From: Comamonadaceae bacterium
GTDB lineage: Bacteria > Pseudomonadota > Gammaproteobacteria > Burkholderiales > Burkholderiaceae_C
NCBI GenBank assembly: GCA_015999985.1
Contig: JAECRA010000004.1
Span: 45,595-109,594, forward strand
Direction of reading: 5' to 3'
Length of the DNA stretch: 64,000 bases
Below the pieces are notes generated by a model. That model saw nothing but the letters and a program-made list of their open reading frames with translations. It was not told the DNA's origin and made no database searches. How positions within the stretch are numbered: position 1 is the first letter of the stretch; each line of letters opens with the position of its first letter. The position numbers and the translations under genes are program-made. Below are positions 59,175 to 61,991 of this stretch, piece by piece.

Positions 59175-60500
59175 TTAGACCTTGCCTTTGCGCAGGCGCA
59201 CGGCACCTCCCACCAACGCGGCCAGGGCCAGCAACATCCAGGGTGAATCTACCGGCACAGCGGCGGGAGTCACTACAGCAGTCGTGGAGCGGCTGGTGTC
59301 GGTGGCTGTGTTGTTTCCGGGCACTGGATCCACCATGTCTGGAGGCAAGGAAACCGTAACCGTATTCGCCAAGGTGGTGCCCGTGTAGCTGGTGGGCACA
59401 GCCAGCGTCAACGTATAGGTTGCGATACCACCATTCAGCAAAGTAACGGATGTGTCTTGAATCGCGCCTGATCCGCTGGCGGCGCAAGTGGAGCCGGAGC
59501 TGGCAGAGCACACCCAGTTCGCACTGACGATGCCAGAGGGCAAGGGATCACTTACCGTGACGCCCGCGGCTGCATCAGGCCCATTATTGGTCACCACGAT
59601 GGTGTAGACCGAATTGGTACCGGGTGTGAAGCTGGCGCTGTTGTCAGTCTTGGTGACGGCCAGATCTGCCTGAGCAGGTGCGACGTTGGCCACTGCTGCA
59701 TTTGGGCAGCTCGCGCCATCGTTGCTTCCTGACGACGGAGCCGCGGAGAGGAAGGTTCGCTGGCCTGTAGCGAGATTGATCTTGAACAGACCGGAGCCGT
59801 CATTGGCAACGCCGAAAAGGCCATTAGTGCCGGAGAATTGAGCGCCCAACACGCCACCTGTGTTGTCTGGCGAACCAATCGGCAAAGTCTGGCCCAGATT
59901 GGCGCCTGGAGTGACGTTGATGGAAAAAAGCTGACCGTTGTCCGCAGTGGAGTACAGCATGCTGCCCACCCACCCCATGTCGGACGTCGTGAAAGAAGTG
60001 GACAAATTGATCGCAGTAGCCGTCGGGGTGGGCGCCAGCACATCAATAGCGTAGATCACGTTGGTGTTGCCGAACGGCTTGACGTAGTACACACCGCTGC
60101 TGCTGAATGTGCCGGTGTTGTAGGGCTGGTTGGGCAGATTGGCAACAGTGCCCAAAGACGTGGCCGCACCGGGTGTGGCGCCGTCACCGGCCACACGGAA
60201 CAACTCGTTAGCACTCAGGCCGTACAACTGGTCGTCCGTCGGGTTGTAGCCGGTCGCGTTGTAAAGCGTGGTGGTAGCACCAGGCGAAGTGAACGCCACC
60301 GGAAGGCCCGGCGGGCTGATGTAGAGCTCCATCGAACTCGGAGGAGGGCCGCCGAGGCCTTGCGACAAATAAAGAGCGCCATCACACGTCAATGCCGACG
60401 CAGAGAACGATGCAGCGACGCCGAAAGCGCCCATAGCTGCCGAGACCAGTGTACGAGCCAAGGGCCCGCGCTTGCCTTTGAACGAACCTTGATCCATCAC
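59175..60500 (-). CDS. Exported DUF11-repeat protein with N-terminal beta-propeller-like region (DUF6923-like) and IPTL-CTERM-like C-terminus
   Basis: DLAVTKTDNSASFTPGTNSVYTIVVTNNGPDAAAGVTVSDPLPSGIVSANWVC; C-terminal VPVDSPWMLLALAALVGGAVRLRKGKV. Confidence 0.82.
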   Translation of the reverse strand: MMDQGSFKGKRGPLARTLVSAAMGAFGVAASFSASALTCDGALYLSQGLGGPPPSSMELYISPPGLPVAFTSPGATTTLYNATGYNPTDDQLYGLSANELFRVAGDGATPGAATSLGTVANLPNQPYNTGTFSSSGVYYVKPFGNTNVIYAIDVLAPTPTATAINLSTSFTTSDMGWVGSMLYSTADNGQLFSINVTPGANLGQTLPIGSPDNTGGVLGAQFSGTNGLFGVANDGSGLFKINLATGQRTFLSAAPSSGSNDGASCPNAAVANVAPAQADLAVTKTDNSASFTPGTNSVYTIVVTNNGPDAAAGVTVSDPLPSGIVSANWVCSASSGSTCAASGSGAIQDTSVTLLNGGIATYTLTLAVPTSYTGTTLANTVTVSLPPDMVDPVPGNNTATDTSRSTTAVVTPAAVPVDSPWMLLALAALVGGAVRLRKGKV

Positions 60501-60794: not shown

Positions 60795-61703
60795 ATGACT
60801 CGCTTCGACCTGCTGTCTCTACAGATGCTGCTTTTTGTCGCAGAGACGGGAAGTGTCAGTAAGGCGGCGGAAAAAGCCAACCTTACTGTCTCGGCTGTCA
60901 GCAAACGGCTGCTTGAACTCGAAGCACAACTCGGTGTAGTGCTGTTTGATCGTTTGCCGCAGGGTGTGCGATTGACGCCAGCCGGCATCGCCGCATTGCA
61001 ACGCATCAACGAGGTCATGCCTATTCTTGGCAAGCTTCAGGTGGATTTGCAGGCGTATGTCAAGGGTGACGCGGGTATTGTTCGCATTGCATCCAACACT
61101 TCCGGGATCGCCGCCGGGCTAGCGCGTGAACTGGAAAGCTTCAAGGCGCAGTATCCGCAGGTCGACCTGCGACTGGACGAGCTGACCAGTGCGCACGTCA
61201 TTGAAGCAGTTGCGGAGGGGCGTGCCGATCTTGGGATATGCGCCGCCAGCGCTCCACTGTCCTCTCTCGCGTCCGCGCCCTACCATGCGACGTCACTCGT
61301 ACTTGCTGTACCGGCAGATCACCCATTGGCAACACGCGATTCAGTCAGCTACCAGGAAAGTCTTGCCTATCCCCACATCGGACGCACGCAAGACAGTGCA
61401 CTCGCATGGTTGCCATCTGCAGCGAGGCCTGCTCCTGTTTCGCCGACTATCACGACGCTGGTGACCAGTTTCGCCGCCGTACTCGCACTGGTACGTGCCG
61501 GCACCGGGGTGGCGGTGATTCCCATCGTGGCACTCAAGAATGATTCGCTAGGCGGCATACAAATCGTCGAATTGAGCGATGAATGGATGACGATGGAGTT
61601 GGTTGTCGTCTTTGACCCGCTTCGGGTGCTGCCACCCGCTGTCTCACGCGTGCGTGCGCATCTCGCAGCGTCAACCGAAAAAGCATGCGTTGGCGGTATC
61701 TAG
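60795..61703 (+). CDS. LysR family transcriptional regulator
   Basis: FDLLSLQMLLFVAETGSVSKAAEKANLTVSAVSKRLLELEAQLGVVLFDRLPQGVRLTPAG. Confidence 0.95.
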   Translation: MTRFDLLSLQMLLFVAETGSVSKAAEKANLTVSAVSKRLLELEAQLGVVLFDRLPQGVRLTPAGIAALQRINEVMPILGKLQVDLQAYVKGDAGIVRIASNTSGIAAGLARELESFKAQYPQVDLRLDELTSAHVIEAVAEGRADLGICAASAPLSSLASAPYHATSLVLAVPADHPLATRDSVSYQESLAYPHIGRTQDSALAWLPSAARPAPVSPTITTLVTSFAAVLALVRAGTGVAVIPIVALKNDSLGGIQIVELSDEWMTMELVVVFDPLRVLPPAVSRVRAHLAASTEKACVGGI

Positions 61704-61707
61704 TGAG

Positions 61708-61991
61708 CTAGGGCGTGTTCACACTAAATTCACCCCCGCGCCGGGGTTTTCCGGGTCGCAGTGCGAGGCGCGTCGTGCCGCCAAGGTGCGATCCTTGGCA
61801 AGAGGCGCAACGCGGCAATGCGGCGCGGCCGGCGTAGGCCCGGAAAACCCCGGCCCGAAGGGTGAGGCTCTGGCAAACTGCACTCGGCGTTGCAAATCCT
61901 CGCCGGGTGTCCAACCCGGCTGCGGTTTGCGCCTTGATTGCAGCTCGCCAGAACCTCACGCGGGGGTGAATTTAGTGTGAACACGCCCTAG
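61708..61991. mobile_element. MITE-like non-autonomous element with perfect 33-bp terminal inverted repeats ending in CTAG
   Basis: Left CTAGGGCGTGTTCACACTAAATTCACCCCCGCG (61708-61740) is the exact reverse complement of right CGCGGGGGTGAATTTAGTGTGAACACGCCCTAG (61959-61991). No credible ORF inside. Confidence 0.88.
61741..61853. repeat. Nested inverted repeat inside the MITE-like element
   Basis: ccggggttttccggg (61741-61755) pairs with cccggaaaaccccgg (61839-61853). Confidence 0.8.

Follow-up and report, generated by a model that had tools for sequence, protein, structure and literature searches.

A probable MITE with IS5-family ends and two inverted Correia-related hairpins between a LysR and a Bug gene of a Comamonadaceae bacterium

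Introduction

The genome of a Comamonadaceae bacterium carries a palindromic segment of 284 bp flanked by a LysR gene and, in convergent orientation, a Bug (TctC) gene, and this locus raises the question of whether the segment is a mobile element or a structure that serves its neighboring genes. We analyzed the segment in the window, that is, the whole stretch of 64,000 nucleotides in which it lies, and compared it with the genomes of congeners, of other Burkholderiales, and of Neisseria gonorrhoeae. An earlier note on the window had proposed a MITE-like element. We regard it as very probable that the segment is a non-autonomous transposon (MITE) with ends of the IS5 family, and that its interior comprises two inverted hairpins related to that of the Correia element, a repeat described in 2009 as found only in Neisseria (PMC2649163).

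Architecture of the element

The element occupies positions 61708-61991 of the window, and the ORFs of LysR and Bug end at 61703 and 61988, respectively (see Table 1 for the parts). The perfect terminal inverted repeats (TIRs) of 33 bp announced in the earlier note were recovered, as the two arms of 33 nt, spaced by 218 nt, are 100% complementary. A second inverted repeat, described in the same note as 15 bp long, is present inside the element but extends over 19 nt with a 95% match (61737-61755 and 61839-61857). The folding energies of the two strands were -200.5 kcal/mol (z -14) and -205.4 kcal/mol (z -17), far better than those of dinucleotide shuffles. The idea of a compound hairpin stood, but the interior turned out to be richer than proposed: the stem of the TIRs opens into two separate large hairpins, which are one hairpin type in inverted orientation, with a mini-hairpin between them (CCC-TTC-GGG and CCC-GCA-GGG in relatives).

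Table 1. Parts of the element and their positions in the window.
Feature	Position	Strand	Remark
Left TIR, CTAGGGCGTGTTCACACTAAATTCACCCCCGCG	61708..61740	+	33 nt; presumed TA target copy 61709-61710
Arm A, divergent Correia-type hairpin	61741..61853	-	Model match 61746-61832, minus strand, 17.7 bits
Junction mini-hairpin CCC-GAA-GGG between arms	61854..61862	.	Read directly from sequences
Arm B, Correia-type hairpin, conserved core GGCGTTGCAAATCCTCGCC..GGCTGCGGTTTGCGCCTTG	61863..61958	+	Model match 61868-61954, R1 80.4 bits
Right TIR	61959..61991	-	Presumed TA target copy 61989-61990; contains Bug stop codon 61988-61990

The 3' side of arm A carries an insert of 15 bp (61825-61839), which in other copies is located in arm B or is missing. 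The inserted block reads GCCTACGCCGGCCGC or its complement, apart from small variants; it was seen in arm A of the window copy and in arm B of others (copies L002, L052, and L056 of the host, G000, and the congener G011), and its placement looks as if the homologous arms had exchanged it. No recognizable gene was found in the element, and the ORFs listed across it are frames of 83-125 aa inside or running into the palindrome. The Bug stop codon, the reverse complement of CTA at 61988-61990, lies within the terminal CTAG as the earlier note had it, in agreement with the end of the ORF. The element had no match in Rfam up to an E value of 1, and the full element had none in the plasmid and phage collections. 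In a simple scan, neither a promoter- nor a terminator-like site was detected in the element, and no sigma-70-type site at its ends. Elsewhere in the window, positions 59175-60500 of the minus strand encode a predicted secreted protein, of which the C-terminal hydrophobic stretch and basic tail resemble a sorting signal.

A dispersed family bounded by TA

The search of the host metagenome-assembled genome (MAG), which is 79% complete, yielded 38 matching pieces in about 14 places, several of which were cut by contig ends. Contigs C26, C31, C52, C66, C93, and C102 of the host stop inside or just past copies of the element; the assembly is thus interrupted by it, and the copy number is underestimated. 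In G011, there were at least 12 full copies with identities of 84-91%, as well as 62 TIR ends and many shortened copies; the forms of 31, 54-62, 120, 167, and 182 bp retain the TIR, and that of 31 bp, CTAGGGCGTGTTCACACTAAATTCGCCCTAG, appears to have arisen by deletion between the CGCCC motifs of the two TIRs. A second, one-armed class of elements in the host MAG (L267-L272) has the ends GAAGGTGTGAACGAATCC and the same hairpin. The element of the window is short, without recognizable coding capacity, bounded by TIRs, and both multicopy and dispersed, all of which are features of MITEs.

We aligned 16 copies, and TA was found at both ends in 15 of them in the setting N-TA...TA-R, the base before the left TA being mostly C or T and that after the right TA being G or A. 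The YTAR-type target suggested in the earlier note agrees with these edges, which probably represent target-site duplications of TA. A predicted stop codon was found at the edge of 25 of the 75 elements against 18% of the non-coding YTAR sites in the same loci (p 8e-4). Pairs of divergently oriented genes were under-represented around the elements (7/65 versus 77/293, p 0.006); both comparisons are rough because the genes were predicted by the longest-ORF rule. With G as the first base of the TIR behind TA, every edge reads TAG, and an insertion into TAA or TAG leaves a TAG stop. The Bug stop would have been kept intact in this way, in line with the note, and stop codons would be mild landing sites for the element.

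The orthologous locus in a congener

The LysR and Bug genes of G011 are 87-88% identical to those of the window, and the stretch between them consists of CTAAGGCGTGTTCACACTA, ten unrelated bases, and CTAATCCAG. In the comparison of empty sites proposed in the earlier note, this locus of G011 lacked the full element but was not cleanly empty, as it retains an 18-nt remnant of the TIR. For a second host copy, the search for an empty site gave no usable ortholog. The remnant implies that the element or a relative sat at this locus of G011 too and was mostly lost. The perfect TIR of the window copy (33/33) fits badly with an insertion predating the split from G011 (flank identity of 87-88%); the two could be reconciled if the arms correct each other or if independent insertions struck the same stop codon in both lineages. 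In the gonococcus, a locus analyzed in 2009 displays a comparable state, with a 17-bp Correia fragment at a site occupied by the complete element in another strain (PMC2649163). The sequence that leads from the LysR stop into the element is CTAGTGAG CTAG (61700-61711), of which eight bases are missing from the G011 ortholog; this gap may reflect separate hits in the two species or the footprint of an older event.

These data bear on the possibility that the segment is a structured RNA or a regulatory sequence kept for regulating the LysR and Bug genes. Such a proposal would account for the very strong folding, the position between convergent genes, and the compensatory changes with which the hairpin is conserved (see below), but copies of this sequence are scattered over many unrelated loci of the host and other genomes, the orthologous locus of G011 has lost nearly all of it, and neither a match in Rfam nor, by the simple scan, a promoter- or terminator-like site was found. 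We thus consider this explanation largely refuted and scarcely credible. An ancestral, conserved regulatory structure, which the earlier note had set against its own reading, is not what G011 displays, as only the 18-nt remnant is kept there.

An IS5-family partner

If the segment is a MITE, an autonomous element with the same ends may be sought. Two-ORF elements of the IS5 family, which we take to be of the IS427-like group, were found in the two congeners G011 and G009 and start with TAGGGCGTGTTAACACTAA; these 19 nt also begin other copies of the MITE in the host. The element of 831 bp in G011 encodes the DUF4096 and DDE_Tnp_1 domains in its two ORFs and has the ends TAGGGCGTGTTAACACTAATGG and TAGGGCCTGTTAACACAAACC, and further DUF4096 loci of G011 and G009 have the ends TAGGGCGTGTTAACACTAATTG. 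The host copies on contigs C14, C26, C31, C66, C93, C102, and C108 begin with TAGGGCGTGTTAACACTAAATTC, from which the window copy differs by a C replacing one A. Altogether, IS5-family elements of the two congeners share at least the first 19 end bases with the MITE, the agreement between the ends of the IS and the MITE being confined to the outer 19-21 nt.

As the earlier note stated, no transposase lies in the window as regards IS5-type domains, since neither PF01609 nor PF13340 was found on its contig. In the host MAG (79% complete), no autonomous IS with these ends was found; the sole match to PF01609 was on contig C104 and there was none to PF13340. Nor did an autonomous IS turn up for the GGCAACGCTGAACAAG end class. 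The element of the window resembles IS5-family MITEs in its GGGCGTGTTAACACTAA ends, which are those of the two-ORF DUF4096/DDE_Tnp_1 elements of the congeners, and in TA in the YTAR context, but its interior is unlike a deleted IS and corresponds to a hairpin module that also occurs under other end classes. With about 14 host loci, no fewer than 12 full copies in G011, and IS ends that match, the family departs from the single-copy segment without matching IS ends that the earlier note had weighed against a MITE; the multicopy family, the TIRs, the TA edges, and the IS ends in the congeners support the MITE reading.

A hairpin module across Burkholderiales

Most of the BLAST hits in other genera span only about positions 178-229 of the query, namely arm B, and the copies of arm B in other genera sit in elements with different ends. 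When the collection of species genomes was scanned with a pattern, at least 119 stretches were retrieved, and nearly all of the 80 listed were labelled as Burkholderiales or unclassified Proteobacteria. With the covariance model R1, the hairpin was detected at E<=1e-5 in 56 of the 250 sampled Burkholderiales genomes. In a phylum-wide sample, 23 of 349 genomes matched at an E value of 1e-4, and 12 of them, the host counted, were in Burkholderiales. Weaker matches were seen in a few genomes outside the order (families f55, f79, f91, f99, and f122), which may reflect transfer, contamination, or chance. Two R1 matches in opposite orientation were present at all of the 19 two-armed loci checked, as well as in the window.

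We aligned 61 varied hairpins, which share a constant core, including conserved unpaired bases, and have upper and lower stems that are variable yet paired; as a part of the set was found by a pattern fixing the core, only the loci retrieved with BLAST could contribute changes in the core. In this alignment, 95.7% of the cells were paired, and 100 cells were double-changed against 28.9 in shuffles. The covariation score was 0.239 versus 0.081 in shuffles, none of the 500 shuffles being as high, but covariation alone is no proof of selection because template switching in DNA palindromes can also give it.

A strict comparison of the ends of 102 elements, a few of which were entered by hand, gave 26 end clusters, eight of them with at least two members; loose single linkage merged most of the end classes, and the stricter clustering was used instead. 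The hairpin was found under two end classes within the host genome itself. The association of a single hairpin with eight or more recurring end classes, its two classes in one genome, and the conserved unpaired core bases are compatible with a hairpin that is itself the mobile unit in place of the TIR and was moved between differing ends by a hairpin-specific enzyme. RAYT transposases are presumed to act in this way on REP hairpins, and the REP/BIME systems share with our elements conserved imperfect hairpins paired in opposite orientation, but the element of the window is much larger, has TIRs with TA, and is not known to be linked to a RAYT. Moreover, among the examined copies that do not lie at contig ends, most have TIRs that match, and TA bounds the full copies at the TIR, not at the hairpin. 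We therefore regard a mobile hairpin as very unlikely and retain the reading of a MITE that is presumably moved by its TIRs.

Kinship with the Correia element

We took a reference copy of the Correia element from a gonococcal record, over the whole of which R1 gave 25 matches at E<=1; all of the 16 that were retrieved are Correia, with 91-98% identity to the reference copy. A second model, R2, was built from 64 hairpins without those of N. gonorrhoeae or Cupriavidus. Over 200 kb of gonococcal sequence, which holds eleven full-length Correia copies by BLAST, R2 gave ten matches below an E value of 0.05, all of them Correia (best 3e-5), and the next, non-Correia match was at 0.41. The form in Cupriavidus metallidurans carries a Correia-like loop, GTACTACTTGTAC, and matched both Correia by BLAST (E values of 3e-6 and 4e-6) and R2 (3.5e-8), and that in Eleftheria matched R2 at 9e-7. 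Cupriavidus and Eleftheria carry intermediate forms between the Correia and Burkholderiales hairpins. As models without Neisseria pick out Correia as their best gonococcal matches and intermediates exist, we interpret the element of the window as a Correia-like MITE with two arms, and Correia itself as a single branch in a group that spans the order.

The resemblance might instead be convergent, the segment being an ordinary genus-level MITE and hairpins of similar size having arisen in elements that target TA. Consistent with convergence, the plain pairwise alignment of the Correia core and arm B reaches only weak significance (p about 0.007 to 0.02 against shuffles that preserve the stem), the TIRs are unrelated, and the Correia copies depend on one another, which reduces their model scores to roughly a single observation. 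On the other hand, the two models without Neisseria both rank Correia top in gonococcal DNA, the Cupriavidus form is significantly similar to both sides, and the conserved blocks GCGTTGC, CCTYGCC (CCTTGCC in Correia), CTGCGG, and CGCCTTG are in the same order in the two hairpins. We judge convergence unlikely, and hold with high confidence, even with the weak pairwise alignment and the non-independent copies, that the Correia core and the Burkholderiales hairpin are homologous.

The Correia element (CREE, NEMIS) is, like that of the window, small, non-autonomous, bounded by TIRs, flanked by TA, and multicopy, and its 17-bp gonococcal remnant parallels the 18-nt remnant in G011 (PMC2649163). 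It is of 104-108 or 153-157 bp rather than 284 bp, with one hairpin arm rather than two, and its TIR, beginning with TATAGTGGATTAA, is unrelated to and absent from the element of the window, which is accordingly Correia-like but not a Correia element. For Correia, RNase III cleavage of the transcripts and promoters at the ends have been reported (PMC2649163, PMC10969869), whereas the simple scan of the element in the window detected no promoter. Exact Correia patterns were not found in viral contigs.

Proposed mechanism and implications

We propose that an IS5-family transposase made elsewhere would bind the TIRs and move the element in trans, that insertion would occur at the TA of YTAR sites with duplication of TA, and that a stop would be retained whenever the site hit is a TAG or TAA codon. 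The copies would then decay by slippage, with deletions between inverted or short direct repeats yielding the derivatives of 31-182 bp or shorter remnants. The conserved hairpin has probably been kept because it is functional as a folded strand. As a first guess, it may act in transcripts near the 3' ends of genes, by analogy with the stem of the Correia TIRs, which is cut by RNase III in mRNA. Tentatively, the Correia core may be a branch of an order-wide hairpin module that was passed between, or outlived, unrelated transposon ends, its folded strand being recognized by a factor common to Burkholderiales; we put this forward as a possibility about which we are more doubtful than confident.

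A MITE with IS5-like ends is ordinary. The literature searched yielded no description of this hairpin beyond Neisseria, nor of a link between Correia and order-wide elements with different ends, and an earlier partial description, as a Polaromonas MITE, is possible. The movement of bacterial repeat elements by transposases was generally hypothesised without experimental support, according to a review of 2007 (PMC2229807). Correia elements alter gene expression in Neisseria. If the elements described here are their relatives, the group would be much older and wider than Neisseria, with ends that vary and a hairpin that stays constant, and the matching IS5-family elements in the same genus would offer a tractable system for the movement of these elements and the role of the hairpin.
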